64,000 nucleotides of DNA. Origin: Myxococcus dinghuensis (GTDB lineage: Bacteria > Myxococcota > Myxococcia > Myxococcales > Myxococcaceae). Below are positions 15,707 through 40,218 of this stretch, in pieces (within the stretch, counting starts at the first letter, position 1; every line of letters begins with the position of its first letter). The notes below the pieces were generated by a model. The model saw nothing but the letters and a program-made list of their open reading frames with translations, was not told where the DNA came from and searched no databases. The position numbers were made by a program, and so were the translations under genes. Location of the stretch: assembly GCF_024198235.1 (NCBI RefSeq), contig NZ_JAKCFB010000019.1, positions 62,001 to 126,000 of the forward strand, in the 5' to 3' direction.

Positions 15707-16672
15707 TCAGGAGCCGGTGTCGCTCCGGGCGACGGGCGGGCCCCGCGGGCGCTGCGCGTCCTCGTCCGGGAGCGCGTCCAGCGGATCCAACGCCTGTCCG
15801 TCGCGCCACAGCTCGAAGTGCACGTGCACGCCGGTGGCGAGCCCCGTCTCCCCGGCCAGCCCCACGGCGTGGCCCAGGTCCAGGACCTCCCCCGGCTCCA
15901 CCAGCACGCGGGACAGGTGGCTGTAGCGCGTCAGCCAGCGGCCGTCATGCTGCACCTCCACCTGGAGGCCATGGTCGCCATTCCAGCCCGCACGCAGCAC
16001 CACGCCCTTGGCGGCGGTGTAGACGACCTGCCCCTGCTTCGCCGCGAGGTCCACGCCCAGGTGGCGACGCAGCTCGCCCATGATGGGGTGCCAGCGCTGG
16101 CCGAAGACGCTGGTGATGGTGACCGGCTCGACGGGCCAGGACAGCCGGGGAAGCCCGCCCACGTCCTCGGGGTGCTCCAGCCGGCGCAGCTCCGCCATGC
16201 GCACCGCGAGCCGCCCCACGCGCAGCACCACGCCCTCCGCGAGCGCGCCCGGCATGTCTCCGTAGGTGCGGCCGTCCAGCTCCAGTTCGGCCTCCAGGAC
16301 GGTGCGGGCTCGCGACACGTCCCGGGCGTCGGTGCGCTCCACCGCGCGCGACAGGAAGGCGTCCAGGAGGCCGTTCATCAGCTCCCAGTTCTCCGCCTGT
16401 CCGGCGGGCATCGTCCCGCCCCGGGCCACCTGTCGGCGGAAGGACCGCGAGCGCTCCGCGAACGTCGACAGCGCCGACTGGAGCTCCGCGGAGGGCTCCG
16501 GGGCGGCCCTCCGGAGGGCGGGGTTCGCGGGCGCATGCTCCGGCGCAGCCGCCGCGCGGTACGTCGAGGGCTCCGGCTCGCTGTAGAGCTCCTCGAAGCT
16601 CATCTTCTGCTCGGCACGCGAGCCGGAGCAGGCACAGACACTGACGAAGGCGAGCAGGGGCAGTCGACGCAC
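15707..16672 (-). CDS. M23-family (LytM) peptidoglycan endopeptidase-like lipoprotein
   Basis: This 321-residue protein has a short hydrophobic leader ending SVCACSGS, with Cys15 a probable lipidation site. A helical region (about 60-170) with charged repeats precedes the peptidase domain (about 183-300). Zinc ligands of M23 are present: H204 and D208 in HLGVDLAA, and H285 in HVHFE with H283 as the conserved partner; YSHLS (250-254) is also typical. Active-site completeness suggests a true D,D-endopeptidase rather than an EnvC-like activator. It may act on peptidoglycan in the periplasm. It ends at a shared hairpin facing HU and lies 49 nt downstream of the threonine aldolase gene. Confidence 0.9.
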   Translation of the reverse strand: MRRLPLLAFVSVCACSGSRAEQKMSFEELYSEPEPSTYRAAAAPEHAPANPALRRAAPEPSAELQSALSTFAERSRSFRRQVARGGTMPAGQAENWELMNGLLDAFLSRAVERTDARDVSRARTVLEAELELDGRTYGDMPGALAEGVVLRVGRLAVRMAELRRLEHPEDVGGLPRLSWPVEPVTITSVFGQRWHPIMGELRRHLGVDLAAKQGQVVYTAAKGVVLRAGWNGDHGLQVEVQHDGRWLTRYSHLSRVLVEPGEVLDLGHAVGLAGETGLATGVHVHFELWRDGQALDPLDALPDEDAQRPRGPPVARSDTGS

Positions 16673-16721
16673 GGCCCGGCGAGCCTACCACGCTCCGCCG
16701 GACACGCCCGCCCGCCTGCCC

Positions 16722-17753
16722 TCAAGCGACGACGGCACGACGGATGCGCGCCAGGGCCTCGTCGATGTCCCGGGTCGACACATCCAGGTGTGTCACCAGG
16801 CGCAGCAGGCCCGGGCCTCCCGCCGTGTTCGTCAGCACACCGTGGCGGGCCAGCAGGGCGACCGTCTCCGGGGCCGGGCGCGAGGCGAACTCGGCGACCA
16901 CCATGTTCGTCTCCACGTGGGCCGCGTCCACCTTCACCCCCGGAAGCTGCGCCAGCCCCGCCGCGAGCCGCCTGGCGTTCGCGTGGTCCTCGGCGAGCCG
17001 CTCGACGTGGTGCTCCAGCGCGTGGAGCGCCGCGGCGGCCAGGATGCCCGCCTGGCGCATGGCGCCGCCCAACCGCTTGCGCAGCCGGCGCGCCTCGCGG
17101 ATGAGGTCCGCGCGGCCCACCAGGGCGGAGCCCACCGGCGCGCCCAGGCCCTTGGAGAAGCACACCGCGGTGGTGTCCGTCAGCTTCGCCCACGACGACG
17201 CGGGGATGCCCGCCGCGACCTCCGCGTTGAACAGGCGCGCGCCGTCCAGGTGGACCGCGAGCCCCGCCTTGCGCGCGACCTCCACCACCGCGCGGAAGCG
17301 CTCCAGCGGCCACACCGCGCCGCCACCGCGGTTGTGCGTGTTCTCCAGCGACAGCAGGCGCGTGCGCGGGTTGTGGATGTTCTCCTCGCGCACCGCGGCC
17401 TCGACGACCTCGGGTGTGAGGAGGCCCCGCGTGCCCGGCAACGGCCCGGGCTGCACGCCCCACAGCGCGGGCACCGCGCCGCCCTCGTAGTGGAGGATGT
17501 GGCTGCCCGCCTCGGTCAGCACCTCGTCGCCCTGGCGGCAGTGCGCGCCGATGGCCAGTTGGTTGGCCTGCGTCCCGGAGGGCACGAAGAGGGCGGCCTC
17601 CAGACCGAGGCGCTCGGCGATGCGCGCCTCGAGGCGGAGCACCGTGGGGTCCTCGCCATAGACGTCGTCCCCCACCTCCGCGTCCGCGATGGCGCGGCGC
17701 ATGGCGGGGGTGGGCTTCGTGACGGTGTCGGAGCGGAAGTCGATGGGCTGCAT
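16722..17753 (-). CDS. ltaE: low-specificity L-threonine aldolase
   Basis: This 343-residue PLP enzyme should cleave L-threonine or L-allo-threonine to glycine and acetaldehyde. The start MQPIDFRSDTVTKPT has GGGAGAG just upstream and gives the family N-terminus. Signatures include DDVYGEDPT (29-37), FVPSGTQANQLA (56-67), SLENTHN (135-141), the HLDGARLFNA segment (168-177), and the PLP lysine K201 in CFSKGLGAPVGS. Length matches the family. It is divergent from nth by 68 bp. Confidence 0.93.
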   Translation of the reverse strand: MQPIDFRSDTVTKPTPAMRRAIADAEVGDDVYGEDPTVLRLEARIAERLGLEAALFVPSGTQANQLAIGAHCRQGDEVLTEAGSHILHYEGGAVPALWGVQPGPLPGTRGLLTPEVVEAAVREENIHNPRTRLLSLENTHNRGGGAVWPLERFRAVVEVARKAGLAVHLDGARLFNAEVAAGIPASSWAKLTDTTAVCFSKGLGAPVGSALVGRADLIREARRLRKRLGGAMRQAGILAAAALHALEHHVERLAEDHANARRLAAGLAQLPGVKVDAAHVETNMVVAEFASRPAPETVALLARHGVLTNTAGGPGLLRLVTHLDVSTRDIDEALARIRRAVVA

Positions 17754-17821
17754 GGCTCTCCCGGGAGGCGGGCTCCAGCGAGGACTTGGGGACGCGACGA
17801 GGGTTGTCATACAACGGCCGC

Positions 17822-18604
17822 GTGCCTGGACGTGAGACCGCCGAGGAGAAGCGCACGCGCGCCGTGAAGGTGATGGACCGGCTGGCGACCGCGATGCCGG
17901 ATGCCCGAATCGAGCTGGACTACCAGACGCCCCTGGAGCTGCTGGTGGCGGTGATGCTGTCCGCCCAGTGCACGGACAAGCGGGTGAACATGGTGACGCC
18001 CGCCCTATTCCAGCGCTTCCGCTCCGCCCAGGCCTACGCGGCGGTCCAGCCCGAGGACGTGGAGCCCTTCATCCGCACCTGCGGCCTGTACCGCGCCAAG
18101 GCGAAGAACATCGTCGCCACGGCGAAGCTGCTGGTGGCACAGCACGGCGGCGCGGTGCCGCTGGAGCGCGAAGCCCTGGCGGAGCTGCCGGGCGTGGGCC
18201 GAAAGACGGCGGGCGTGGTGTGCATCCACCTGGGAGGCACGGGCGCCTTCCCCGTGGACACGCACGTGAAGCGGCTGGCCTTCCGGCTCGGCTTCACCAC
18301 GCACGAGGACCCGGACAAGGTCGAGCTCGACATGCAGGCGGTGCTACCACCGGAGCGCTGGACGCTGGGTCACCAGTTGCTCGTGTGGCACGGGCGACGC
18401 ACGTGCTTCGCTCGCGCTCCGGACTGCGCCCACTGCGTCGTGGCGGACCTGTGCCCGAGGAAGGGCGTCACGTCCACGGCACGGGCCGACGCTCCGGAGG
18501 AGCCGGGGACACCGGCGAAGCCAGGGCCCGCGAAGGCCCCGGCGCGCAAGAAGGCGTCTAGCGCGAAGCCGAAGCCCGCGGTCCGTCGTCGCGCGAAGCC
18601 TTGA
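17822..18604 (+). CDS. nth: endonuclease III (DNA glycosylase/AP lyase)
   Basis: This enzyme removes oxidised pyrimidines and cleaves the abasic site in base excision repair. From the GTG at 17822 the product is 260 residues. The helix-hairpin-helix motif LPGVGRKTAGVV carries catalytic K128, and D146 is in VDTHVKRLA. The [4Fe-4S] ligands C195-x6-C202-x2-C205-x5-C211 are complete. A Lys/Ala/Pro-rich tail of about 45 residues follows and is unusual for the family; its end is encoded antisense to the end of def (47-bp overlap). No good ribosome-binding site is visible for any start; ATG 17876 or TTG 17786 are alternatives. Confidence 0.93.
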   Translation: MPGRETAEEKRTRAVKVMDRLATAMPDARIELDYQTPLELLVAVMLSAQCTDKRVNMVTPALFQRFRSAQAYAAVQPEDVEPFIRTCGLYRAKAKNIVATAKLLVAQHGGAVPLEREALAELPGVGRKTAGVVCIHLGGTGAFPVDTHVKRLAFRLGFTTHEDPDKVELDMQAVLPPERWTLGHQLLVWHGRRTCFARAPDCAHCVVADLCPRKGVTSTARADAPEEPGTPAKPGPAKAPARKKASSAKPKPAVRRRAKP

Positions 18605-19091
18605 GGCGCTTCATCTTCTTGCGGATGATCTCCCGCTTCAGCGTGGAGACGTGGTCCACGAAGACGGTGCCGTTGAGGTGGTCCGTCTCGTGCTGCACGG
18701 CGATGGCGAGCAGGTCGTCGCAGCGCAGGGTCTGCTCGTTGCCGTCGACGTCCAGGTACTTCACGGTGACGAAGGCCGCGCGGTCCACGTCCTCGGACTC
18801 ACCGGGGATGGAGAGGCAACCCTCGGTGTAGGTCGTCTCACCCTCCATCGCGACGATTTCGGGGTTGATCATCGCCAGCGGCTTGGACTCCGGCTGACGC
18901 GGCGTCGTGTCGAGGACGATGATGCGCTGGAGCACGCCCACCTGGGGCGCGGCCAGGCCGACGCCGTCGGCGGCGTACATCGTCTCGAACATGTCCTTCA
19001 CCAGGGCGCGGACGGTGTCGTCCACCTTGGCCACCGGCTTGGCCTTCTGCTTGAGGATGGGGTCGGGCCAGATCAGGATCTCACGAACCAT
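18558..19091 (-). CDS. def: peptide deformylase
   Basis: This 177-residue metalloenzyme removes the formyl group from nascent proteins. All three motifs are present: GVGLAAPQVG (43-52), EGCLSIP with metal ligand C92, and QHETDHLNG with ligands H134 and H138 and catalytic E135. The start MVREILIWPDP is conserved in the family. The C-terminal tail (after about residue 165) is Lys/Arg-rich and overlaps nth by 47 bp in convergent orientation. It lies 77 nt downstream of the giant scaffold gene, with a hairpin between. Confidence 0.96.
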   Translation of the reverse strand: MVREILIWPDPILKQKAKPVAKVDDTVRALVKDMFETMYAADGVGLAAPQVGVLQRIIVLDTTPRQPESKPLAMINPEIVAMEGETTYTEGCLSIPGESEDVDRAAFVTVKYLDVDGNEQTLRCDDLLAIAVQHETDHLNGTVFVDHVSTLKREIIRKKMKRLKASRDDGPRASASR

Positions 19092-19168: not shown

Positions 19169-22100
19169 TCAGTCGAACAGGCTCCGCGCGTACTCCGCAC
19201 GCAGGCGGTCGTCCCCCAGGGCCTGGGCGGCCTCGGAGAGCACGCTGCGCACCTGCTGGGCCCGGTGCTGGAGCGCGGGGTCCGGGTGTCCGGCGAAGCG
19301 CAGGGGGTGGAACTCGGCGGCGAGCAGTTCGTACGCCCGCTTGACCTCCTCGCCCCCCGCCGTGCGCGCCAGCCCCAGCACGGTGAAGTAGTCCGCGTCC
19401 TGGATCTCCTCGAACTTCGCCTCCAGCCGCCGGACGTCCAGTTCGGGGGGCAGGTCCCCGGTGTCGTCCAGCTCCGCGGGCTCGAGGACGATGAGGCCCA
19501 GGGCCCGGGCCACCGCGAGCGACTTGAGCGCCGAGTCCTGCGGCACCCCCGCCCCCAACAGCAGGGCCTCCAGGGTGTGCTCGCCATCCACCTGTGACAA
19601 CAACTGGAGGTCCCGCTGCGACAGGCCGAAGTCGTCCGGGGCCAGGTGCAAATCCCCCCGGCGGACGCGGGCGCGGAGGCTGCCCGCGACCTCCATGAGC
19701 GAGTCGCCGGTGAGCGTGTTGCGCAGGGCCTCCGCCAGGAGGTGCAGCGGCGGACGCGTGGCGGCGGCGAGCGCGACCTCGTGCGGCGCCGGCTCCTTCA
19801 CCAGTCGGTACAGCGTGGAGGGTTCGGCCAGGGCGTCGAGGAACACCTGCTCGGTGTAGCGCTGGACCAGGGGCACGGCCTCGGCCTCGCGCAGGTAGCC
19901 GCGTCCGCGCAGCGCATCCAGCAGCGCGCCGGTGGAGGCGCTGCGCACCAGCCGCAGCTCTCCCTCCTGCCGCGCGTCGATGAGCCCGTCCGCGCGGGCA
20001 CGGTCGACGAGTGACTCTCCCGGCGAGGAGGACACGGCGCCGACGAGCGCGCCATCCCGGAGCCACAGGATGCGCAGCGCGTTCATCACCTTCAGCTCCA
20101 GGCGCACCTCCATGCGCGCCTCGCAGAGACGGAGCACCAACCGCGTCAACCCCTCCTGGGTGACGCTGCCGCTGCGGGACACCGCCAGCTCCGGCCGGCC
20201 CGGAGGCGCCTCGAGCGGCAGCAGCGCGGCGCGGGCCTGGGCCGCGGCTTCCTCCGCCTCGCGACGGCCCCGCTCCTCCAGCTCCACACGCTCGCGCTCG
20301 GCGCGCTCCCGCTCCCGGGCGGACTCGGCCTCCAACCGGGCCTTCTCGGCGCCCAGCGCGTCCAGGGCCTTCGCCACGCTCTCGCGGGCCTCCTGCTCCC
20401 GCGCGAGCGACTCCCCCATCCGCTCGAGCTGCGACTGGACCGCGGCGAGCTGCTCCGCGAAGCGCGTGGACTCCGCCTGGAGTCGTGACTCCGCGGCGGC
20501 GCGGGCCGAGGAGGCCTCATCGATGCGAGCCTCGGCCGCCGCGCGCTGACGGGATTCGGCCTCCAACCGGACCTCCAGCGCGGTGCGGTGACGGCCCTCC
20601 GCGGTGGCGCGGGCGTCCGCGTCCGACTCCGCCTGGGCGGCCTTCTCGATGCGCGCCTCCGCATCCTGTCGTGCCTTCTCCTCGGCGGCGGCGCGCGCTT
20701 CGGCCTCCGCGCGGGCCTTCGCCTCGGTGGCGGCGCGCGATTCAGCCTCCTCGTGCGACAGCACCTCGGCGCGCAGGCGCTTCTCCATCTCGAGCCACGA
20801 GGCTTCCTCGGCGGCGACCTTCGCCTCCAGCGCCGCGCGTTGGCGCGACGCCTCCGCGGCCCTCGACTCTGCCTCCTCACGGGCCTTCGCCTCGGTGGAG
20901 GCGAGCAGCTCCGCCTCCTCGCGGGACTCGGCTTCCGTGCTCGCGCGCGACTCCGCCTCCTCGCGCGCACGGGCCGCGGCCTCCGCGCGGGCCTCCGCAT
21001 CCAGGCGGGCCTTCGCCTCGGCGGCGGCGCGCGCTTCGGCCTCCTCACGCGCCCGCGCTTCCCGCGTGGCCCGGGCCTCCGCCTCGGCCTTCGCGAGGGC
21101 CTCTACCTCCGCGCGAGCGCGGGCCTCGGACGACGCGCGAGTCTCCAGCTCCGAGACGGCCAGGACCTCGGCCTTGGCACGCGCCTCGACCTCCGCGCGG
21201 GCGCGCGTCTCGGCTTCCGCGCGCGTCTCGGCCTCCGTGCGAGCACGGGCCTCCAGCTCCGACTGCGCCTCGGCCTCCGCGCGGGCGCGCGTCTCGGACT
21301 TCAGACGCGCCTCCGCCGCCGTGCGCGCCTCCGTGGCCGCCTCCGCGCGAGCCTCCGCCTCCGAACGCGCCAGGGCCTCCGCGCCAGCGCGGACCTCCGC
21401 CTCGATGGTGGCGACCTCCGCCGCGCGCAGCCGCGTCTCCAACGCCTGGCGGGCGCGCGTCTCGGCCTCGGCGCGCGCCTCGGATTCGACCCGACCCGCG
21501 GCCTCCTGTTCGAGCCGCGCCTCGATCTCCTTCGCCGCCTGAGCCGCCGCGGCGCCGTGGGTCTCCGCCTCGATGCGCTCCGCCTCCACCGAGCGAAGCT
21601 TCGCCTCGAGCGCCACGATGCGGACTTCCGCGTCCGACCGGACCAGCGCCTCCTGGTCGGAGCGCGACTGGGCATCATCGCGCGCGAGGGACACGTCGCG
21701 CAGCCTCCGCTCCACTTCGGCGCGCACCTCGGCTTCGCGAGCGGACTGGGCCTCTCCCACCTCGGCGCGGGCGAGCGCTTCCGCGAGCTGACGAGACAGG
21801 GCCTCGCGCTCGTTCCGCGCAGCCTCGAGTTCGCCGCGCAGCGTGGTGACGTCGCCCTCTCGCGCCTCGATGCGCCCCAGCGTCGCCTTCGCCTCGGCAT
21901 CGAGGGTGGCGCGCGCCTGGGTCTCGGACTCCGCGCGGGCCTCCGACTCCGCCAGACGCGCTTGGAGCGAAGCCAGCTCGGAGCGGTGCTGTTCCCGCGT
22001 CTCCGTCGCGCTCGCCTCCAGCTCGGCCTCGCGCTGACGCGACCGCGACAGCTCGTTCTCGAGCTCCGAGCGCAGCCGCGCCTCTTCAGCCCGCGCGGCT

Positions 22101-25100
22101 TCGAGCTGCTGCTCCATCTCCGCGCGGAGCGTCGTCTCTCGCGAGAACTCCTCTTCGAGCGAGGCGAAGCGCTCCTGCAAGGAGTGAAGCTGCTTCGCGT
22201 CCTCGGAGCGCTCCGACTCCAGGCTCTCGCCCTGGAGACGCACGGCCTCCAGGCTGGCTTCGGCCGCCTGCCGCCGCGTGGACTCCTGCTCCTTCGCGGT
22301 CTCCGCCTCGACCCGCAACGCGGCTTCTCGCTCGAGAACACCCCGGAGCGATTCGTTCAGCTCACGCAGCTCCTCGGCGCGTTGCTCGAAGCTGGCCCGC
22401 TGGGTGGTCTGGGCCTCCAGCTCCACCTTCAGCGTGTGGACGCGCTCGTGTGCTTCCTCGAGCTGTCGCTCCGTCTCCTCCTGGCGGGCACGCCACTCCG
22501 CCATGATTTCGGGGGAGATGGACATGGCGCCCGACATCGCGGGGGCAGACTCCTCCGAGACCACGGGAGCAGCGTCCGGGCGCTCTTCCGCCCCCGCGTC
22601 GAACCAGCCCGAGCCTGGAGCAGGCTGGGCCGACGACACTTCCTCTCCAGGAGATGCGGGGTCGCTGGCGTCGTGAGCAACCGGAGACTCGGCTGCGTCC
22701 GGAGTCGAATCGAACCAACCCGCGCCCGGGTCCGTGGGTGCCGCTTGCGTGCCCTCAGCGGACTCGGTCGTCGAGTCGAACCAGCCCGCGCTCGGGTCCG
22801 TGGGCGCCGCGCCGACGGTTTCATCGGTCCACGCAGCGCCCTGGGTCTCTTCGGGAGGCTGCGCGGCTTCGGCACCAGGTGCCCCGCTCTCACCCGGGTC
22901 CGACGACGACGCGACCGCCACATCGGGCATCGCTTCGGCCGAGACAGCCGAATCCTCGCCCGACTCCGGCAACGGCTGCGACTCCGTGGCACCTGCCATG
23001 TCGGACGTCGAGTCGAACCAACCCGCGCTCGGGTCCGTGGAGGCCTGCGCGTCGCCCCCCGACGTCTCATCTTCCCAGCTTGCATCCGAGGCCACGGGGG
23101 CCGCGTGCGTAGTGCCTTGCGACTCCGTCGCCGGGTCGAACCAACCCGCGCTCGGGTCCGTGGACGGCTGCGGTGCCACATCGGAGGTCGAATCGAACCA
23201 GCCGGCGCTCGGGTCCGCGGACGTGACCTGCGCGGCGTCCGGCCCCGTCGCCGTATCGGACCAACCTGCGTTCACATCCTCCGAGGACTGCGCGGATGAG
23301 GTCTCAGCAACAGCGGCTGACACATCGGACCAGTTGGCGCTCGCATCGTCCGAGGCCGTGGACTCAGCATCGCCGGATGTCGGATCGGACCAGCCGGCAC
23401 TCGCGGCCTCCGTGGACTGCGATGCCGCGGACTCAGCATCGCCGGACATCAGTTCGGACCAGCCCGCGTTCGCATCCTCAGTGGAATGAGGGGCTGTGGA
23501 CGCAGCAACGTCGGATGTCGAATCGGACCAGCCGGCGCTCGCATCCCCCGAGGACTGTGCGGTCGCGGACTCCGAAGCGTCAGACATCGAATCGGACCAG
23601 TCCGCGCTCCCATCTCCCGAGGACTGTGGGGCCAGGCTCGCAGCAACGTCGGATGTCGAATCGGACCAGCCGGCGCTCGCATCCTCCGAGGACTGTGCGG
23701 TCGCGGACTCCGAAGCGTCAGACATCGAATCGGACCAGTCCGCGCTCGCATCTACCGAGGCCTGCGACGCCGAGGCGCCGCCAGCATCAGACGTCGAGTC
23801 GAACCAGCCCTCACTCGCAGCCGCCGAGGCCTGCCCAACCGAAGCACCCGCAGCTTCAGACGTCGAGTCGAACCAGCCCGCGCTCGCATCTACCGGAGGC
23901 TGCGACGGCGAGGCACCTGCAGCATCAGACGTCGAGTCGAACCAGCCCTCACTCGCAGCCGCCGAGGCCTGCCCGACCGAAGCACCCGCAGCTTCAGACG
24001 TCGAGTCGAACCAGCCCGCGCTCGAATCCGCTGGAACCTGCGATGCCGAAGCACCCGCAGCTTCAGACGTCGAGTCGAACCAGCCCGCGCTCGCATCCGC
24101 TGGAACCTGCGATGCCGAAGCACCCGCAGCTTCGGACGTCGAGTCGAACCAGCCCGCGCTCGCATCCGCTGGCGCCTGCGCAGCCGAGGGCGCAGCGGCG
24201 TCAAACGTCGAATCAGCCCCGTCCGGCCCCATATCAGCCGGGCCCCGCGACGCCCCGGAATCAGCGCCGTCGGACGTCGAATCGAACCAGCCCGCGCTCG
24301 CATCCGCAGGCACCTGCGGTTCCGTGGCGACAGCGGTTTCAGACGTCGGATCGAACCAATCCGCGCTCGGGTCCGTCGCGGGAGACACCGTCGCCGACGT
24401 CACCGGCGGTGCGGAGTCCCCCGAAGTCGGCGGTGAACCATCCGCCCAGCCAGCAACCTCGGCGGGCCCCGCTTCGTCGCCAGTCGGCGAAGACTCCTCT
24501 CGCGGAGCCGCATCCTCATCATCTCCGTCGGCGCCGCGAGCCTTGGCCTGCAACTCCGCCTCGAGAAAGTCCCAAGGCGAGGGCGGCAGGGACTCCTCTT
24601 CCTCTTCCGACGCGCTGCTCGACTCGGCCGAGGGCGGCTCGGGTGAGTTCCTCGCATCCGTGAGCCACCCTCCCTGCTCCAGCTCCGGGTCGGGAGGCAG
24701 CTCCGTCCAGGGCGAGGTGTCGGAGAGACTCGCGGCACCCGCCGGAGCGCCCCGCATCGCGGCCAGCTCCGCTTCCGCCGCGGACAACGCATCCGTTGAC
24801 GAAGGCGCGGCCGCATCGACGTCGAAGAACCCCGCATCCCCCAATCGAGGCGCATGACGCGCGGGGCCCGCCGCATGCGCGGACGACACCGGCTCCTCCG
24901 TCCACGCGAGCTTGCCCACCGGCAAGGACTCCTCGGAGGGGAGGTCCTGCTCGGTCGAGGCATCCGGCTCCGCGTGTCCCTGGTTCGCCGCCCACTCCAG
25001 CGCACTCTCCAACCCCGGAGGACGCACACCGTAGAGCACCGTCGCGGGACCACCAGGAGGAGGTTCCGTCCCCTCCATCGAGAAGGAGGTCTCGCGCCCT

Positions 25101-26155
25101 TCCGCCGCGTGCGGCTCACCACTCCCGTACGCGGCGTCGATGGCCGCGTCGTCATCATGCGGTCCGTCCTCGAAGGACGTCGCGGACGCCGAACCCCAGT
25201 CCCCTTCCGCGGAGAGGCCATATTGCACGGCCGCATCGGTGTCCGCCGGAGAGCCCGAGTCATCGACCGGCGCGATGCCGCTCGCGACCGCCGGGTCATG
25301 ACCCTCGCCGCCGTACGCCGAGGCCCCCTCCAGCACGCCGTCCTGCTCCCCGGAGAACCCTCCGACCCCCTCCGCTGGAGCCTCCGCGTCGGCGGCCATC
25401 TCGTGAGGAGGGATGCCACCTTCGTCGGTGCTCGGGTCATCCGGCTGGGAGCCATCCACCGCCGCGCCCCAGTCCTCGCCTCCGCGCACCCGCGCGGTGT
25501 CGATCGAGGCCCGCGCCGCCGCGTCCATCTCCTGGTCCGCCTGTTGGAGCGCGGCATGGACGTCCACCCCCGAGTGCCGCTCCTGCTCCTCCGCGCGCGC
25601 CGTGCGCTCCTCGCGCGTCATCGCCGCCAGCTCCCAGTCCGCCTGGTGCAGGGGCGTCAGGTCGCCGAACAGCGCGTTCGCCAACGTGGCGTCACCGGCC
25701 ACCTTCGAGGGCGAGGTCGCGTGCCAGGCCTCCGCGTCGTCCTTCCCGCGCGCACCGCCGCTCTCCGGCAGGGAGCGGTTCTCCACCACGTGCCACGCAT
25801 CCGCGGAGTTCGCGGGCGCGCGGAGGGTGGAATCCACCAGCGCCACGAAGCTCGTCCCATCCAGGGGCAGCGGCGCCACGGGAGCGCTGAAGCCGGGCAC
25901 GGGCTCCCCGAGCAGCAGCACCCGGGCGTGCTTCCCCTCCGGATGCTGGAGCAGCTCCTCCAGGACCACGCGCCCCCGGCCGCTCTCCACCCCCGGGGCG
26001 AGCACGATGAGCGCGGGCAGGTGGTGCCCATAGGCGATGAGCGCATCCGCGGCGGAGGTGACGAGGATGACCTCGTGCCCGTCGCGGGTGAGCAGGCGCC
26101 GCACAGCGGCGATGGTGGCGATGTCGTCGTGGACGAGGAGGACCGGTGCGCCCAT
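19169..26155 (-). CDS. giant scaffold: pseudo-receiver, W-[FS]-D repeats, coiled coil, DUF4388-like, degenerate J-domain
   Basis: This 2328-residue protein has five parts. Residues 1-110 look like a CheY receiver (VLLVHDD at 5-11), but the phosphoacceptor site reads LIVLAPG with Ala53, and the usual Thr/Ser and Lys are also missing, so it is a pseudo-receiver. Residues about 115-590 are acidic and low-complexity. Residues about 595-1190 hold some 24 repeats around W-[FS]-D. Residues about 1217-1970 are a very long Glu/Ala/Arg-rich coiled coil. The C-terminus has a DUF4388-like region (about 1985-2110), a linker, and a J-domain-like end (about 2254-2328; DYFTVLGLA) in which HPD is HPL. The layout recalls the M. 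xanthus polarity proteins FrzS and AglZ (pseudo-receiver plus coiled coil). It begins 15 nt after priA and is probably co-transcribed. A polar or cytoskeletal scaffold role is inference. Confidence 0.85.
22592..24373 (-). repeat. array of about 24 W-[FS]-D coding repeats, 69-bp base period
   Basis: The base unit is 23 residues (69 bp), for example [20 protein letters not shown] plus three more. Matching points at 23992, 24061 and 24130 are exactly 69 bp apart. In the centre, Ser replaces Phe (W-S-D), and pairs of units form a 138-bp higher-order repeat (23511 and 23649). Copies near both ends are W-F-D and spacing becomes irregular after about 23200. All copies stay in frame. Confidence 0.93.
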
Positions 26156-26170
26156 GGGGGGGCACCGAGT

Positions 26171-28414
26171 CTACAGCATGGCCCCCGGATCCACGTCGAT
26201 CACGACCTTCACGGCCGACGGAACATCTTCCAGGGCCGCCTCCACCCTGGCGAGCAGCGGGGCGAGCGCCGCATGTGTCGGCCCCTTCACCAACAACTGC
26301 CAGCGCGTCTTCCCCCGGATTTTGGCGATGGGCGCCAGGGCGGGCCCCAACAGGCGCACCCCCGCCGAGGCCGGCGGCATGTTGCGGGAGATGACGTTGC
26401 CCAGGGTCCGGGCCACACTGGCGGTCTGCTCGGGGTGCTCCCCCTCCAGGCGGATGGAGGCCATCCGCGCGAAGGGGGGGTAGGCCAGGGCCTTGCGCCA
26501 CTCCAGCTCCTGCTGGGCGAACCCATCGAAGTCATGGGCCAGCACCCGCTTCACCGGCTCCGAGTCCGGGTTGTAGGTCTGGACCAGCACCCGCCCCGGG
26601 TCCTTTCCACGCCCCGCCCTGCCGGCCACCTGGGTCAGGAGATGGAAGGTCCTCTCGGCGGCGCGGAAGTCGGGAATGGACAGGGAGGTGTCCGCCATGA
26701 CGACGCACACCAGCGTCACCCCCGGGAAGTCGTGGCCCTTGGCCACCATCTGCGTGCCCACCAGCACGTCCAGCTCGCGCCGGGCGAACGAGGCCAGCAT
26801 CTCCGTCAGCCGCTCCGCGCTGGAGGCCGAGTCCCGGTCCAGCCGCGCCACGCGCGCCGTGGGGATGCGCTCGAGCACCTCCGCCTCCACGCGCTCGGTG
26901 CCGATGCCCAGCTTGAGCAGGGGGCCGGTGCACTCGAGGCAGCGGTCCGGCACCGGCAGCGCCAGCCCGCAGTAGTGGCACACCACGCGGTTCTGCGAGC
27001 GGTGGTGCGTGAGGCACACGTCGCACGCGCTGCACTTGAGCGACAGGCCACACACCTCGCACAGCATCACCGTGCTGTGGCCGCGCCGGTTGAGGAAGAG
27101 GATGACCTGCTGGCCGCGCGCCAGCGTCTCCTCCATCGCCGCCAGCAAAGGCGGACTGAGGATGGGCGCCTCCTCCGTCACTGGCCCCTCGCGGGGACGC
27201 TCCTGGCGCAGGTCCACCAGCTCGATGGACGGCATGGGCCGGTCGTCCACGCGGCGCTCGAGCGCCAGGAGCCGGTAGCGTCCGCGCTTCACGTTCTCCA
27301 GCGTCTCCAGCGCGGGCGTGGCCGAGCCGAGCACCACCACCGCGCCGGCCTGCTTGCCCCGCACCACCGCGAGGTCGCGCGCCTGGTAGCGCAGGCTGTC
27401 ATCCTGCTTGAACGACGGGTCGTGCTCCTCGTCCACGACGATGAGGCCCAGGTTGTCCACCGGGGCGAACACCGCCGAGCGCACACCCACGGCGATCTTC
27501 ACCTCGCCCTTGCGCAGGGCCTGCCAGTGGTAGAGCCGCTCGCGGTCCTTCAGCGCCGAGTGCAGCACCGCGACCTCCGCGCCGAAGCGGCTGCGGAAGC
27601 GCCCCACCAACTGCGGCGTCAGGGCGATCTCCGGCACGAGGATGAGGCTGCCCTTGCCCAACGACAGCGCGTGCTCCGCCGCGCGCAGGTACACCTCCGT
27701 CTTGCCGCTGCCGGTGACGCCGTGCAGGAGGAAGGGCTGGAAGGCGCCGGTGTCGAGGGCGGCGCGCAGCTCGACGCCGGCCACGTCCTGCTCCGGGGTG
27801 AGGCGGTCGGGCCGGCCCTGGATGAGGCCCTCCTTCACGCCGGCCTCCAGCTTCTTCTCCTCGATGCGCACCAGCTTGCGCGTGGCCAGGCTCTTGAGGT
27901 GCGCGCGCGCGCCGGGAATCGCGTGGGCCACCTCCTCGAGGGGAGCGCTGCCGCCCACCGCGAGCAGATACGCGAGCACGGCGGACTGGGCGTGCGCGCG
28001 CGCCAGGATGGGCGGCACCTCGCTGACGAGCGCGACGGCGAAGTGCTCCACGTCGGGCTTGGCTTCCTTCTCGTCGACGGGCTTCGACAGGCCCGGGGGC
28101 AACGCGCTCCGGATGACCTCGCCCAGCGGATAGCGGTAGTGCTCCGCCGCGAAGCGCAGGAGCGCGATGAGGTCCTTGGGGAGCGAAGGCGACTCCTCCA
28201 ACACGCGCTGGATGGGCTTGAGCCGGAACTTCTCCGCGGGAGGCTTCGCGGGCCCCAGGTAGAACCCGAGCGCGGTGCCTCGGCCGAAGGGCACCAGCAC
28301 CCGCTGCCCTGGCGCCAGGTTGCCGGCGAGGCCCTCCGGGACCGAGTAGGTGAACTCCCCCCGGACGGGGCGAGCAACGGCGACGGACGCCAGGATGGGG
28401 GGACGCTCGCTCAC
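26171..28414 (-). CDS. priA: primosomal protein N' (replication restart helicase)
   Basis: PriA recognises stalled forks and reloads the replicative helicase through PriB/DnaT or PriC. From GTG 28414 the product is 747 residues and the N-terminus aligns with the family (ASVAVARPVRGEFTYSVPEG). Walker A is GVTGSGKTEVY and Walker B is VVDEEHD. A zinc-binding region follows (CEVCGLSLKCSACDVCLTHH, then CHYCG and further Cys pairs). The helicase C-terminal motif VAGRAGRGKDPG is present. An upstream ATG at 28492 with AGGGG would add 26 residues. The giant scaffold gene follows after 15 nt, so the two are likely one operon. Confidence 0.95.
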   Translation of the reverse strand: MSERPPILASVAVARPVRGEFTYSVPEGLAGNLAPGQRVLVPFGRGTALGFYLGPAKPPAEKFRLKPIQRVLEESPSLPKDLIALLRFAAEHYRYPLGEVIRSALPPGLSKPVDEKEAKPDVEHFAVALVSEVPPILARAHAQSAVLAYLLAVGGSAPLEEVAHAIPGARAHLKSLATRKLVRIEEKKLEAGVKEGLIQGRPDRLTPEQDVAGVELRAALDTGAFQPFLLHGVTGSGKTEVYLRAAEHALSLGKGSLILVPEIALTPQLVGRFRSRFGAEVAVLHSALKDRERLYHWQALRKGEVKIAVGVRSAVFAPVDNLGLIVVDEEHDPSFKQDDSLRYQARDLAVVRGKQAGAVVVLGSATPALETLENVKRGRYRLLALERRVDDRPMPSIELVDLRQERPREGPVTEEAPILSPPLLAAMEETLARGQQVILFLNRRGHSTVMLCEVCGLSLKCSACDVCLTHHRSQNRVVCHYCGLALPVPDRCLECTGPLLKLGIGTERVEAEVLERIPTARVARLDRDSASSAERLTEMLASFARRELDVLVGTQMVAKGHDFPGVTLVCVVMADTSLSIPDFRAAERTFHLLTQVAGRAGRGKDPGRVLVQTYNPDSEPVKRVLAHDFDGFAQQELEWRKALAYPPFARMASIRLEGEHPEQTASVARTLGNVISRNMPPASAGVRLLGPALAPIAKIRGKTRWQLLVKGPTHAALAPLLARVEAALEDVPSAVKVVIDVDPGAML

Positions 28415-28796
28415 AGCGGGCGGCACTGTAGCGGCCTGTTCCGGCTGGGACAGTTCCCGGCGACTCCTCGCACCTGAGGTACGCACCGCCATGGAACCCC
28501 TGGTGGAGGCTCCTCCTGGCTTCGCGCTCCCGACCGGCTCGGCCCACAAGGGTTGCTGCTCCATGGCGCTCCTTCCCACCGCCCCTGCCCCGCCCGTCCT
28601 GCTCCCTGGGTCCACAGTGCCAACCCTGTCTGACATGCAGGACACGTCGGGTGGAGCACGGCTCCCGAGACCTCCGCGCCGCGAGGCTGCCTGCTCGCTT
28701 CCCGTATGGGCGACGCAGGCCCCGCCCGCGTGTCCCCCCGCAGCGCCTCCCGCGTTTCGCGCGGCGAAGCCGGAAGGCTCAAGATATATCTTGGAT
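28415..28796. other. 382-bp divergent intergenic region priA / padR
   Basis: This stretch holds the promoters of two divergent units. The only element I can support is the palindrome next to the padR start. An N-terminal extension of PriA could occupy 28415-28492. No RNA gene or further open frame with coding character is seen. Confidence 0.5.
28780..28793. promoter_or_regulatory. 14-bp palindromic operator candidate at the padR start
   Basis: CAAGATATATCTTG is a perfect 14-bp palindrome ending 3 nt before the ATG at 28797. It is almost entirely A/T in a 70% G+C region, and a partial GATAT repeat follows across the start codon. A PadR dimer binding here would block transcription or initiation of its own operon. 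No ribosome-binding site lies at the usual distance, so the transcript may be leaderless or short-leadered. Confidence 0.5.
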
Positions 28797-34572: not shown

Positions 34573-37500
34573 TCAGCGCGAGGCGCGCAGCGCGAGGTAG
34601 CGCTCGGACGCGGCGAAGCGCAGCAGCTCCACCAGCTCCGCGTCCTGCGAGCGGCGCGAGCGGATCACCGTCACCGCGGGGCCCACGCCCCCACAGGCCA
34701 CGAGCCCGGCGCGGTTGGCGGAGTCGCGCGCGGCGTCCGCCAGGGCGGAGGCGTTGAAGTCGCGCATGCCGGGCTCCAGCAGCTCCCGCGTGCGCTCGAG
34801 GGAGCGCGGGGAGAGCGACTCGCGCACGAGGCGCGCGTCGGCGCCGGAGTCCTTCGGGTCCTTGAGCACGGTGGCCAGCAGGGCCAGGGCGCGCAGGAGC
34901 TGGGCGCCCTTGAGGGCTCGCAGCGCGAGCAGGTCCGGAGAGAGCGAGAGCAGCGCCCGCCCCGCGTGGAAGCGCAGTACGGCGGCGGGCAGCTCCTGGC
35001 GCACCACCGCGCGCCCCAAGATGAGGCGCGGGTGGCCCACGTGCATGGCGGTGAACGGCGGCCCGTCGTCGTCGGCGAGGATGAGCTCCGGCAGGTTCAT
35101 GGACAGCACCCGCGCGGAGGCGTGCAACGCGTCCAGCACCAGCGGCGCGCCGGGACCCGAGCCGGCGCGCAGCGGCTCCGTGGCCTCCGCGGCGCGTCCC
35201 TGGGCGGGGAACAGGCGGCACAGCGCGATGCCCGCGCAGGCGAGCAGCTCTCCCGAGGCGGTGCGGAGCCCCGGGTGACGCAGTCCCGCCCGCTCCTCGA
35301 TGGACAACGGCTGACGATGCAAGCGCGGCTCGGGGGACTCCTTGTCCTCGAGCGCGTCGACGATTTCGCGCATGAGCACGGCGCGCGGCGCATCGCCTCG
35401 CGTGTCGAAGAAGTCCGCGAGCTGGGTGTACGTCGCCGTGTCGAGCGGACGCTCACGCAGTTGGCGGAAGGCATCTGGTTCCGTGTCCGCCGGGGCCTGG
35501 TGCGCGGGCTCCGGGACGACGGGGTTCTCGCGCGTCTCCGAGGAGCCCACCGTGGGGGGCGCGGCAGGCTTCGAGATGAAGGTGCGGCCGGGGGCGGGAC
35601 CCGCGGCCGTTCCTTCGGAGCGCGAGCGGATGACCCGGCGCACCGGGTCCATGCGTCCGGGCGGTGCTTCCCAGGAGATGACCCGTGTCTCCGGCACCGG
35701 CGCGGCGTCGAGGTCGAGCTCCGTCCCGGTCATCAGGTCCATCCCCTTGCCACGGCCCCCCGCGGCTCGAGGCGGAGGACGGGCCGCGTCCCGCGAAGCA
35801 GGAGACGCGTCGGGGCGCGACGCGCCACGTGCGCCCGCCGCGTCGTCCACCGGAGCGGGACTGGTCGCTCCTGGTGATTTGGGCACGGAGGGAGCCCCCT
35901 TCTCCGGACGCTGCACGGGGACGTTCGCGCCGAAGACGACGGTGGAGCCCGAGGCCATGGACTTGTCGGGGGCGGGCTGCGCCACGCCGGGGCGCTCGGG
36001 GCGGGACGCGGGCGGAGCCGACTCGGGAGGCGCCGCGGACTTCGCTCCACGCGCCGGAGCCTTGTCCGCACGCGCCGCGACATCCCCTTCCGCGCGCGCC
36101 GAGCCACCACCCGCAGCCGGCGCGTTCGGGGACTTCTCGCCGCGAGTTGCGGGTGGCGCCGCCGGCACAACCGCCTTCTCTTTCTGAGGCGCCTGCACGT
36201 TCTCCGCGCCGGCCCGAGGTCCTCTCGCAGGCGCCTGTGAACCCGTGGGCCCGGAAGCCGCCGCTCGCTCACTGGGAGCCGCAGGCTGCGAAGCCTGCAC
36301 AGCCGCCCGCTCGCTCTGAGGCGCCTGCACGTTCTCCGCGCCGGCCCGAGGTCCTCTCGCAGGCGCATGCGAGCCCGTGGGCCCGGAGGCCGCCGCTCGC
36401 TCACCGTGCGTGGCTTGTCCCCCATCCCCACGAGACGCTTGCGCGGTCTCGGCCGCCCCGGACCGGCCCCCTCGTTGCGACGGAGCACTGGAGACGGCCG
36501 GACGCTCTGGCTTCGCACCAGCCTCCGGTCGAGGACTCCTGGCCGCTGGCGCGGCGTCCTCGGGCCGCACATGCGTGCGTTCGTCCTGGAAGTCGGCCGC
36601 CGACACCTTGCGTGCCTTGGGGTCGCTGGGCTGCGGCGCGCCGGCATCGTCGGTGCTGGAGGTCACCTCCTCGGAGAGGTCGTTCGCGCCTGCTCGCGCC
36701 AGCGAGCTGGTCACCACGGGCGGCGCAACCAACGCTGTCTTCGGACCACTCGGCTCGCGTCGCGGAGTCGCGCTGCGAGGAGGCTCCGGCGGAGGCAGTT
36801 GCTCACGTTCCTCGCGCGCGAGCCGAATCCCCTCGGCGCGCCGCGCGTAGACCTGGGCCCGCTCGGGATTGCCGAGCGCATCGCGCCACATCCGGGCGAG
36901 CCGATCCCAGGTCTGCTCGCGCTCCAGCTCGTCCTCCATCGCCGTCGCCGCGTGCTCCAGCGCCCACGCGGCCTCGCCCTTGTTGCCGCGCGCCTGCAGT
37001 CGCTCGACCAGCAGCAGCCAGGCCTCCTTGTGCCCAGGCTCGTAGCGCACCGCCTGCCTCAGCTCGTTGAGCGCGCCCTCCGCGTCGCCTCGCGCCTCCA
37101 GCGTGGACACCAACTCCAGGCGCGCCTGACGCGCGACGGGGCCACGAGGCTCCTGGGTAATCTGCGCGCGCAACAACTGCCCCAGGGCCTGCGCGTCCCC
37201 CAGCTCGCGCGCGAGCGCCAACAGTCGCCCCCGCGCCAGTTCGCTCTCGGGAGACTCCGCGAGCACCTCGGTCCAGGCCCACTGCGCCAGCCGCGCGTCC
37301 TTCAGCGATTCCTCCGCGGTCCGGGCGAGGACTCGCAGCGCCTCGATGCGGTCGGGCGCGCGCCGCGACGTCTGGGCGAGCACGTGCCGCAGTCGCTGCG
37401 CGACGGCGAGCTGCTCGGCGGGCTCGACACCGAGGAGCAGCCCCGAGAGCACGGGCAGCAAGCCCGGCACCAACGCGTCCGCGGCCTCGAAGTCCGCGCG

Positions 37501-40218
37501 CGCCTTCTGGCGCTCCCCCATGTGGAGCCACCGCTCGCCCCGCGTGAGCAGCGCCGTGGCCCGCGCCCGTCCGGTCTTCGCGCGATGAATCGCATCGTCG
37601 AGCGCGCGACGCACGAGCGACGCATCATCGCGGGAGGACAACAACCGCACCTGTTCCCGCAGGGCCGCGCGGTCGCCCGTCAGGTCGACAATCTCGCGGT
37701 ACATGCGCGCGGCGCCAGCCGGGTCCTGGAGCTCGTTCTCCATGACCTCCGCCAGCCGCGTCAGCGCATCGGCACGGGCCGCGGCGTCCTTCGCCCTGTC
37801 CGCTCGCTTCAAGTAGAGCTGGGCCAGATCCTTCCAGGCCCGACGCGCGACGAGCTGCGCCTCCAGCTTCTGCGAGCGCGCCAACTCCTCCGCATCCTCT
37901 TTCGCGCTCGCCTTCGCATCCGTGGGAGCCCGCGCGCTCCCAGGAGCGGCCCCCCCCTCCACGCGGACTCCCGCCGCGTGCGTAGGAGGCAGGGCATCGG
38001 ATGCGCCCTTTCGCGCCGGCTCGACGTTCGTTCCGGGCACACCGCCCAGCGCGGCGAAGAGGTCCGCGAGCGGGACCTCCGTCGTCTCGGAACGCGGCGC
38101 CTCCGCGTCGTGGGCGCCAGGGAGCGGAACCTCCTGCGTTTCCGAGCGCGGCGCCCGGGCCACCGCTTCGCGCGGAGGCGAAGCGGGCTCGAGGACGGGA
38201 ATGTCTCTTCCCTGATGTGCCGGCCGCGAGGAAGACAGGGGGCGGCCCACAGCAGGCGCCTGTTTCGGCTCTTCCGGGCTCGACTCAACCGCCCACGGGA
38301 CGGACAAGTCTTCACGGCCCTGCGCGGCAACCGGAAGCACCACGACCGGCATCTCCACCACGGTCCGCGCCGCGGGAGGCGAGTCACTCGGCCCCGCCAC
38401 GAGGGGCATCTCCACGACCGTCTTCGCCCGCGAGTCCTCCGGCCCGCCACGCGCCTCGCGTGGACGTTGCGTGGATTCGGGAACGCCCCCTGCGCGAGAC
38501 GCCGCGCCGACAGCGGAGGGCAACGCCGAAACGGAAGGTGCCGCTCGCGCGACCTCGACAGGTGCCGGCACGAAGGACGAAGCAACCACCGCGCTGGAAT
38601 CGGATGCGGCCTTCCCAGACTGAACTTGCGGAGCCGTGGGCGAATTCCCAGCGCCCGGTGACGACTCGGTCGCCGGACGAGCACCAGATGTCGTGGTCCC
38701 GTCCCCACCAACGGGCTCGAGACTAGACACGAGGGCGCCAATGTTTGATGCCGATGCGGTCGCCGGACGAGCATCGGGCGCCGCAGTCCCATCCCGAGCC
38801 CCTGAAACCGTGGGCTCAACCCCAGATACTGTAGGCCCTGGGCCCGTTGACGATGCGGACGCCGGACGGGGACCCGACGCCGCGGTTCCATCCCGAGCGC
38901 CTGAAGCCGTGGGCTCAACCCCAGACACCTTGGGTCCCGCGTCTGATGACGATGCGGTCACCGGACGGGCACCGGACGTCGCACTCCCGTCGCTCACGCC
39001 CGGAACATCACCCGGCCCGATGACAGGCTCGTGAACCGGGTTCGTCGACGGCCCCTGCGCATCCCCGACAGGCGTCCCTGATTCGGAAACCGAGCGCACG
39101 ACGGCCCCGGACTCCACCGAGGCCGAGTGCGACGCAGTCGACTCCGCCGAATCGCTGCCCTCTCCCGCCAGGGGGACCGGCGAAACGGACGCGACCGGCG
39201 CATGGGACGACACCGTCCCGACCGGAGGCACGGCGTCATCACTCCACGGAACCAGCGACTCCGCGGACACTGGTGGCGCGGACACCACCGGCGCTCCGTC
39301 CCGGTGGACCACGACCGGCGCCCCCCGAGACTCCGACGGAGGCGGGACGGTCGGTGCCGCAACGGCGGACTCCGGCTTCGTCGCCTCGGCTGCGCCCTGC
39401 TCCGGTGTCGACACCGAGTCCAGATGCGCCGCCTTCTCGCCCGACGTCGAGGGGACAGTGCCAATCACCACCCCAGGCACCACGAGCCGCGCATCTGCCA
39501 CGGTCGTCAGCCCCAGCGGGTGACCATCCACCTGGAGCTGGGCCCAGGGCAGCTCCACCGTGAGCGAGCGCGGAGGCGCGGAGACGGCGGGCGGCGGAGC
39601 CAACGCGCCCGTGACATCCACCACGGTCTCCGCCCGGACATCGACATCTTCATCCCAGACCGCGGAGGCCTGGACGCCAGACTTCAACGTGGGGCGCTTC
39701 GCCAGCACGGAGCCCGGGGGCGTGGACACCTCCGGACCTCGCGCGACCACCCGACCTCGCAGCACCTCGAGCACCCTGCTCGCGCGACGGTCCCCAGGGG
39801 ACTCGACGAGCAGTGGCTCCAGTGTCGCGATGGCGCGGGGGAGCTGCTCCACGCGACGCAGCACCCGGGCCAACTGCCTGCGCACCGCGCGCTGGACGTC
39901 GGTGGAGGCCGTGACGAGCGAGGCCTCCAGCAACGTGATGGCCGCGGCCTCCGTCCCCGCCATCCGCGAGAAGCGCACGAGCGAGGCGGCGAGGCGCGCG
40001 GACATGGGCAGCACGCGGCTGGCGCGCGCCAGCTCACCGAACGCGCGCGCGGCGGAGCCGTCCCGCCACAAGCGCACGGCGGCCTGGAAGTGGCGCTCCA
40101 CTCCTGCTGCCGCATCCTCGGTATTCCCGACATCGAGAGCGCCAGACTGCGGCGCTTCGGGTCGGACGGCGAAGGGAACCGGCGTCTCGGTCCCCTTGCC
40201 GTTTCTCACGCCACCCAT
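34573..40218 (-). CDS. 1881-residue TPR scaffold with low-complexity linkers and conserved C-terminal domain
   Basis: No signal peptide or membrane segment is visible in this 1881-residue protein. Residues about 30-160 are a helical repeat (TPR-like) region. Residues about 250-760 are Pro/Ala/Ser/Thr-rich low complexity with short repeats. A second TPR block is at about 768-1143 (motifs such as LAEVMENELQDPAGAARMYR, and AWALEHAATAMEDE). Another Ala/Pro/Arg-rich linker follows, with a 132-bp direct repeat. A compact C-terminal domain is at about 1570-1881 (LDTATYTQLADFFDTRGD, FHAGRALLSLSPDLLALRAL). It looks like the tail of myxobacterial TPR proteins and recalls an inactive M48-like fold, which is a guess. 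Its start is only 24 bp from the divergent GT2 start, so the true start may be further in. Confidence 0.75.
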   Translation of the reverse strand: MGGVRNGKGTETPVPFAVRPEAPQSGALDVGNTEDAAAGVERHFQAAVRLWRDGSAARAFGELARASRVLPMSARLAASLVRFSRMAGTEAAAITLLEASLVTASTDVQRAVRRQLARVLRRVEQLPRAIATLEPLLVESPGDRRASRVLEVLRGRVVARGPEVSTPPGSVLAKRPTLKSGVQASAVWDEDVDVRAETVVDVTGALAPPPAVSAPPRSLTVELPWAQLQVDGHPLGLTTVADARLVVPGVVIGTVPSTSGEKAAHLDSVSTPEQGAAEATKPESAVAAPTVPPPSESRGAPVVVHRDGAPVVSAPPVSAESLVPWSDDAVPPVGTVSSHAPVASVSPVPLAGEGSDSAESTASHSASVESGAVVRSVSESGTPVGDAQGPSTNPVHEPVIGPGDVPGVSDGSATSGARPVTASSSDAGPKVSGVEPTASGARDGTAASGPRPASASSTGPGPTVSGVEPTVSGARDGTAAPDARPATASASNIGALVSSLEPVGGDGTTTSGARPATESSPGAGNSPTAPQVQSGKAASDSSAVVASSFVPAPVEVARAAPSVSALPSAVGAASRAGGVPESTQRPREARGGPEDSRAKTVVEMPLVAGPSDSPPAARTVVEMPVVVLPVAAQGREDLSVPWAVESSPEEPKQAPAVGRPLSSSRPAHQGRDIPVLEPASPPREAVARAPRSETQEVPLPGAHDAEAPRSETTEVPLADLFAALGGVPGTNVEPARKGASDALPPTHAAGVRVEGGAAPGSARAPTDAKASAKEDAEELARSQKLEAQLVARRAWKDLAQLYLKRADRAKDAAARADALTRLAEVMENELQDPAGAARMYREIVDLTGDRAALREQVRLLSSRDDASLVRRALDDAIHRAKTGRARATALLTRGERWLHMGERQKARADFEAADALVPGLLPVLSGLLLGVEPAEQLAVAQRLRHVLAQTSRRAPDRIEALRVLARTAEESLKDARLAQWAWTEVLAESPESELARGRLLALARELGDAQALGQLLRAQITQEPRGPVARQARLELVSTLEARGDAEGALNELRQAVRYEPGHKEAWLLLVERLQARGNKGEAAWALEHAATAMEDELEREQTWDRLARMWRDALGNPERAQVYARRAEGIRLAREEREQLPPPEPPRSATPRREPSGPKTALVAPPVVTSSLARAGANDLSEEVTSSTDDAGAPQPSDPKARKVSAADFQDERTHVRPEDAAPAARSPRPEAGAKPERPAVSSAPSQRGGRSGAAETAQASRGDGGQATHGERAAASGPTGSHAPARGPRAGAENVQAPQSERAAVQASQPAAPSERAAASGPTGSQAPARGPRAGAENVQAPQKEKAVVPAAPPATRGEKSPNAPAAGGGSARAEGDVAARADKAPARGAKSAAPPESAPPASRPERPGVAQPAPDKSMASGSTVVFGANVPVQRPEKGAPSVPKSPGATSPAPVDDAAGARGASRPDASPASRDAARPPPRAAGGRGKGMDLMTGTELDLDAAPVPETRVISWEAPPGRMDPVRRVIRSRSEGTAAGPAPGRTFISKPAAPPTVGSSETRENPVVPEPAHQAPADTEPDAFRQLRERPLDTATYTQLADFFDTRGDAPRAVLMREIVDALEDKESPEPRLHRQPLSIEERAGLRHPGLRTASGELLACAGIALCRLFPAQGRAAEATEPLRAGSGPGAPLVLDALHASARVLSMNLPELILADDDGPPFTAMHVGHPRLILGRAVVRQELPAAVLRFHAGRALLSLSPDLLALRALKGAQLLRALALLATVLKDPKDSGADARLVRESLSPRSLERTRELLEPGMRDFNASALADAARDSANRAGLVACGGVGPAVTVIRSRRSQDAELVELLRFAASERYLALRASR
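36185..36370 (-). repeat. 132-bp direct repeat in the TPR scaffold gene
   Basis: Two copies start at 36185 and 36317 and share a core of about 50 identical bases. They encode the linker unit ERAAASGPTGS with GPRAGAENVQAPQ, in frame, 44 residues apart. Confidence 0.8.
38661..38990 (-). repeat. 90/99-bp coding repeats in the TPR scaffold linker
   Basis: Four in-frame copies of a unit around GARPxTASS...SGVEPTxSGARDG. The reference point recurs at 38671, 38761, 38860 and 38959 (spacing 90, 99 and 99 bp, or 30 and 33 residues). It is a Ser/Ala/Pro linker with no enzymatic motif. Confidence 0.8.

Follow-up and report, generated by a model that had tools for sequence, protein, structure and literature searches.

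A giant protein with a pseudo-receiver, a PATAN domain and a degenerate J domain in the priA-def operon of Myxococcus dinghuensis and its relatives in Myxococcota

The gene that follows priA in Myxococcus dinghuensis encodes a 2328-residue protein, here called X, which we read, at a probability of roughly 55%, as a non-catalytic, two-ended adaptor that joined the priA-def-fmt operon early in the history of Myxococcota and has passed down by vertical descent from then on. No published account of the gene was found in the literature on Myxococcus and on the domains and neighbours of X, and as far as could be found X is an undescribed variant of the pseudo-receiver scaffold. One candidate identity, SopA, is ruled out, as SopA has 405 residues and no known domains (PMC11580455). 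The features of X and its neighbours in the 64-kb window (the whole stretch of DNA analysed) are as follows.

18558..19091, minus strand: def, peptide deformylase (Pfam PF01327, E 2e-52)
19169..26155, minus strand: X, 2328 aa, made up of pseudo-receiver, linker, charged helix, PATAN-winged helix and degenerate J domain
19190..19393, minus strand: degenerate J domain (HPL in place of HPD), residues 2255-2322
19424..19702, minus strand: winged-helix-like segment from PATAN to J, about residues 2152-2244
19718..20170, minus strand: PATAN (DUF4388) domain, residues 1996-2146
20222..22525, minus strand: long charged, heptad-like helical region, residues 1211-1978
22607..24361, minus strand: tandem array of units of about 23 aa with W[FS]D motifs, residues 599-1183
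25649..25696, minus strand: short conserved motif behind the receiver, about residues 154-170 (approximate coordinates)
25814..26155, minus strand: pseudo-receiver domain, residues 1-114, with Asp changed to Ala, Thr to Gly and Lys to Leu
26171..28645, minus strand: priA, start uncertain within 28390-28645

X sits within the priA-def(-fmt) housekeeping operon. Its reading frame begins with ATG 15 nt after the priA stop at 26171, as the first-pass annotation had stated, and ends 77 nt before def, the next downstream gene, which that annotation had overlooked; priA, X and def lie on one strand with operon-like spacing. A scan for terminators between priA and X gave no match, nor did one for sigma-70 promoters, a consensus that serves Myxococcus promoters poorly, and fmt was not found adjoining def in the window. 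The upstream gene is a genuine priA (PriA 3'BD, DEAD, Zn-ribbon and PriA_C domains; TIGR00595 E 3e-182), and its start, previously placed at 28414, has a candidate in the Met at 28564, which is conserved in Myxococcus. The priA-def-fmt arrangement is an old and general one, among the commonest housekeeping operons of bacteria.

Several other features of the window can be recorded here. The N-terminal extension of PriA (residues 28-34 of the 26171-28645 frame; window position 28564) carries a stretch, MEQ(Q/R/H)xLW, that is conserved in Myxococcus and relatives and resembles a sliding-clamp-binding pentapeptide (QxxLW/F); Corallococcus-like PriA has MEQEHF or MEQENF in its place. Downstream of def, the gene order at 15707-18604 (an Nth-like glycosylase on the opposite strand, a threonine-aldolase-like lyase and an M23 murein endopeptidase) is kept in several relatives. 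A second giant reading frame of 1881 aa with a Pro/Ala/Ser-rich middle lies at 34573-40218 on the minus strand and has no match in Pfam or NCBIfam.

The association of X with priA extends throughout the phylum Myxococcota, whose genomes were surveyed. About 120 of the 156 well-assembled genomes encode a conserved X-type C-terminus, defined by E <= 1e-38 where paralogues reach about 1e-34 or weaker. Where enough upstream sequence was fetched, 26 of 28 orthologues adjoin priA. They range from Myxococcus, by way of families resembling Archangium and Anaeromyxobacter, to families in other classes; the remaining two come from genomes of a single genus in family f23. The linkage first seen in this genome is, in other words, a property of the phylum. 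The order in relatives is priA-X-def, followed by fmt in members of f11, f14, f24 and f29, and X is kept even in genomes of 2.1-2.7 Mb (G121, G122). Full X is absent from roughly a quarter of the sampled genomes and is therefore dispensable in those lineages. Many of these have def directly behind priA (L126, L127, L129-L132, L134, L136, L138-L141, L145, L152, L153), some continuing with fmt, and the remotest have priA with neither X nor def behind it. That X acts alongside PriA at replication forks, an association suggested at first, is very unlikely: priA is indeed directly adjacent to X across the phylum, but def and fmt are equally adjacent in an old general operon, relatives without X still have priA-def, and X has no recognised DNA-binding domain beyond a weak match to a winged helix. 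Because X lies inside the operon, priA has no stronger claim than def to be its partner.

The N-terminus of X, proposed from the outset to be a receiver lacking its phosphoacceptor, has the receiver fold. A single-sequence Pfam search places a receiver at residues 5-81 well under the cut-off (E 0.095); a profile built from 21 X orthologues picks up solved receivers at E 9e-7. The AF2 model (pLDDT 85, pTM 0.80) retrieves the CikA pseudo-receiver, DivK and FrzS in Foldseek at E 7e-8 to 2e-6. The first acidic residue is replaced by His and the phosphoacceptor Asp by Ala, and by the definition in PMC12632262 the domain is a pseudo-receiver. Behind it, a motif of LF[GD]D type is found in most Myxococcia and in members of f10 and f11, including one with a linker of 81 aa.

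The middle of the protein is far more variable than its ends. The linker from receiver to PATAN ranges from 81 residues (L067) to 1876 in the X described here, and the part between receiver and helix is described as disordered and repeat-bearing. A repeat array of about 600 residues had been counted among the defining parts of X. The array is present, with 21 [GDNE]W[FS]D motifs spaced about 23 aa apart and a 69-nt period in TRF at 23352-24305, but it does not define the family: the nearest relative (G011), whose C-terminal part is 95% identical, has 10 motifs and the other relatives counted have 0-5, with array-like motifs elsewhere single or few (GFFDV, GWFDS). These counts point to a recent, lineage-specific expansion, nearly private to M. 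dinghuensis and its nearest relative, and the array is incidental to X. The coiled coil of about 750 residues stands as a long helical region at 1211-1978 and only partly as a classical coiled coil. Charges are strongly 7-periodic, and hydrophobic 3.5-periodicity is significant only in the first and last thirds (1211-1460 and 1701-1978), which makes the region part coiled coil and part charged helix rich in Ala, Glu and Arg.

The C-terminal module opens with a PATAN domain, and the DUF4388-like region noted earlier is borne out by relatives: Pfam DUF4388 (PF14332) falls just under its cut-off in X alone (24.4 bits against 25) and is matched in 17 of 17 relatives, at best 2e-18. In the AF2 model of the last 344 residues the PATAN and winged-helix-like parts are well predicted and the J part poorly, with low confidence. 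Foldseek with this model found nothing in the PDB under E 0.1, and the missing PATAN match is uninformative because VIA-align likewise gives only weak winged-helix matches, among them one to a winged helix of an RNA polymerase III 39 kDa subunit (Z 8.0, rmsd 2.7, 75 aligned).

The J-like end is, as the first-pass annotation held, degenerate. Pfam PF00226 scores 29.5-34.2 bits, over its cut-off of 27.8, and matches 15 of 17 relatives. Stimulation of Hsp70 by a J domain requires the HPD motif, which in X reads HPL. Two loci, L176 (G040) and L177 (G161), encode minimal forms, about 285 and 233 residues long, between priA and def, which consist of a receiver and a J-like end with no PATAN and no long helix. 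These forms, together with the position of X, which in many lineages is flanked by priA and def(-fmt), would be in keeping with a ribosome-linked, Hsp70-independent co-chaperone acting with Def and Fmt on nascent chains. We regard this as extremely unlikely, as HPD is lost, no ribosome-binding feature was seen in X, and the PATAN domain and receiver would be left unexplained.

Among known systems the anatomy of X most recalls FrzS and AglZ of Myxococcus xanthus. FrzS has an N-terminal receiver without the phosphoacceptor Asp and a long coiled coil, and works by binding, as X would (PMC1974792, PMC11580455); AglZ, likened here by description, has a pseudo-receiver and a FrzS-like domain structure (PMC1974792). 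X combines a pseudo-receiver with a long coiled coil, the latter only partly classical. FrzS differs in being shorter, with a coil of 258 residues, and in having neither PATAN nor J. We know of no PATAN or J end in AglZ. The receivers of X and FrzS share general sequence similarity only: in the receiver profile, RR468 of T. maritima outscores FrzS (E 0.004). No sign of special kinship with FrzS or AglZ was found beyond the likeness in anatomy. As a description of anatomy (pseudo-receiver, long spacer, distal binding module, both catalytic signatures lost with the folds still under purifying selection) the FrzS/AglZ-type scaffold proposed in the first-pass annotation remains the best fit.

Whether X is also such a scaffold in function, at the cell pole or in motility, with its PATAN domain acting on the motor of the type IV pilus, is a separate question, and we consider it possible but rather unlikely. 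FrzS binds SgmX through its pseudo-receiver and is localised by its coiled coil (PMC11580455), in Synechocystis PilB is a binding partner of PATAN domains (PMC10519157, PMC7690835), and in Myxococcales PATAN proteins are found together with SgmX (PMC11580455); the pseudo-receiver and long helix of X, and the presence of the FrzS receiver among the Foldseek matches, favour the same reading. The distribution of the pilus motor, however, does not track that of X: about 20 genomes that lack X have a PilB (TIGR02538) match over the cut-off, and in some that have X the best match is below it, which weighs against a simple pilus role. In addition, the sole match to the X receiver in its own genome at E <= 1e-5 is the pseudo-receiver of a hybrid kinase, and X resides in a housekeeping operon and is kept in the genomes of 2.1-2.7 Mb mentioned above.

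PATAN domains and receivers are also combined in cyanobacterial regulators of the PatA, PixE and PixG type, which bind PilB or the divisome (PMC7690835, PMC10519157, PMC7380572). In these the PATAN comes first, the receiver last and J is absent. To our knowledge they also have no long spacer. REC-PATAN response regulators of the same genome (G000 C13, C86 and C56) have the receiver first and a homologous PATAN (best E about 1e-27). Unlike X, they appear from their sequences to retain the Asp, have no J and no giant linker, and lie away from priA. The J-like domain of ZipN/Ftn2/ARC6, likened to that of X by description, is thought to be Hsp70-independent (PMC6391411); it is N-terminal and belongs to a membrane protein. 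We know of no receiver or PATAN in that family.

By analogy, X could be pictured as an adaptor that serves the division site or chromosome organisation and fuses the counterparts of cyanobacterial PatA (PATAN-REC) and ZipN/ARC6 (J-like). PatA binds the divisome proteins ZipN and SepF (PMC7380572), the N-terminus of ZipN is J-like (PMC6391411), and X contains all three of these domain types and shows the inheritance of a core gene. The domain order of X is different, with REC first and PATAN-J last, and no division gene was seen near it, so that we hold this role to be unlikely. That X unites in one chain the domain types of FrzS, the PATAN-REC regulators and ZipN is suggestive of a shared role but is not evidence for one.

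The history of the family is consistent with the adaptor reading. A tree of the PATAN/winged-helix region, rooted on REC-PATAN paralogues and on REC-PATAN-J proteins that are not linked to priA, requires only a single origin for the priA-linked genes; several of its deep forks are weak. The receiver Thr/Ser position is Gly in every priA-linked X checked, and the Asp is lost in all X of Myxococcia and in most others; it is retained in members of f11 and f22/f23, along with the Lys in two f11 members, and phosphorylation may persist in the Asp-keeping proteins. HPD is retained among priA-linked X only in L063 and L067, for which reason contact with Hsp70 may not be lost throughout. NG86 estimates of dN/dS are 0.15-0.28 for the receiver and 0.11-0.19 for the C-terminal module, similar to PriA (0.11-0.27); both ends are thus under selection without their catalytic residues. 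A recent insertion or an annotation artefact as the origin of X is excluded by this purifying selection and by the phylum-wide orthologues. Two unlinked REC-PATAN-J proteins, L120 (G061) and L122 (G043), have the full set of receiver residues and an intact HPD, and may represent the catalytic type from which X descends. The locus G000:C32:51000-59000 (L178) encodes a further, separate J-TPR protein, its HPD intact; in its vicinity lies a TPR-like protein that matches, at its C-terminus, the post-PATAN part of the X module.

Our analysis suggests that X arose from the common REC-PATAN type of response regulator by gain of a J domain at the C-terminus. The receiver would no longer accept a phosphoryl group and the J domain would no longer provide standard stimulation of Hsp70, each fold being kept as a docking surface. 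X probably dimerises through its helical middle, and this part, along with the disordered linker and the W-F-D and LFGDL-type motifs in it, probably sets reach and valency between the ends, which would explain why spacer length varies more than tenfold. As part of a housekeeping operon, X would be produced constitutively and act through binding rather than switching; we infer the binding role, the dimerisation and the constitutive expression alike. Our leading guess for the site of action, by analogy with FrzS and cyanobacterial PatA, is the cell pole or the division site. A bolder version, which we find distinctly doubtful, would make X a separate phylum-wide class of adaptor, its receiver and J domain stripped of catalysis and fused to PATAN, serving from its priA-def-fmt position as a cytoskeletal or division scaffold timed with replication restart and nascent-protein maturation.

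Taken as a whole, the initial interpretation of X is partly supported; of the outcomes named beforehand as refuting it, neither an N-terminus without receiver fold nor a priA linkage confined to this genome was observed. X has kept a fixed place in a very common housekeeping operon across a phylum noted for multicellular behaviour. Its family forms a natural series in which receiver and J domains lose catalysis yet remain selected, presumably as binding modules, and in which linker and repeats expand freely between two fixed ends.
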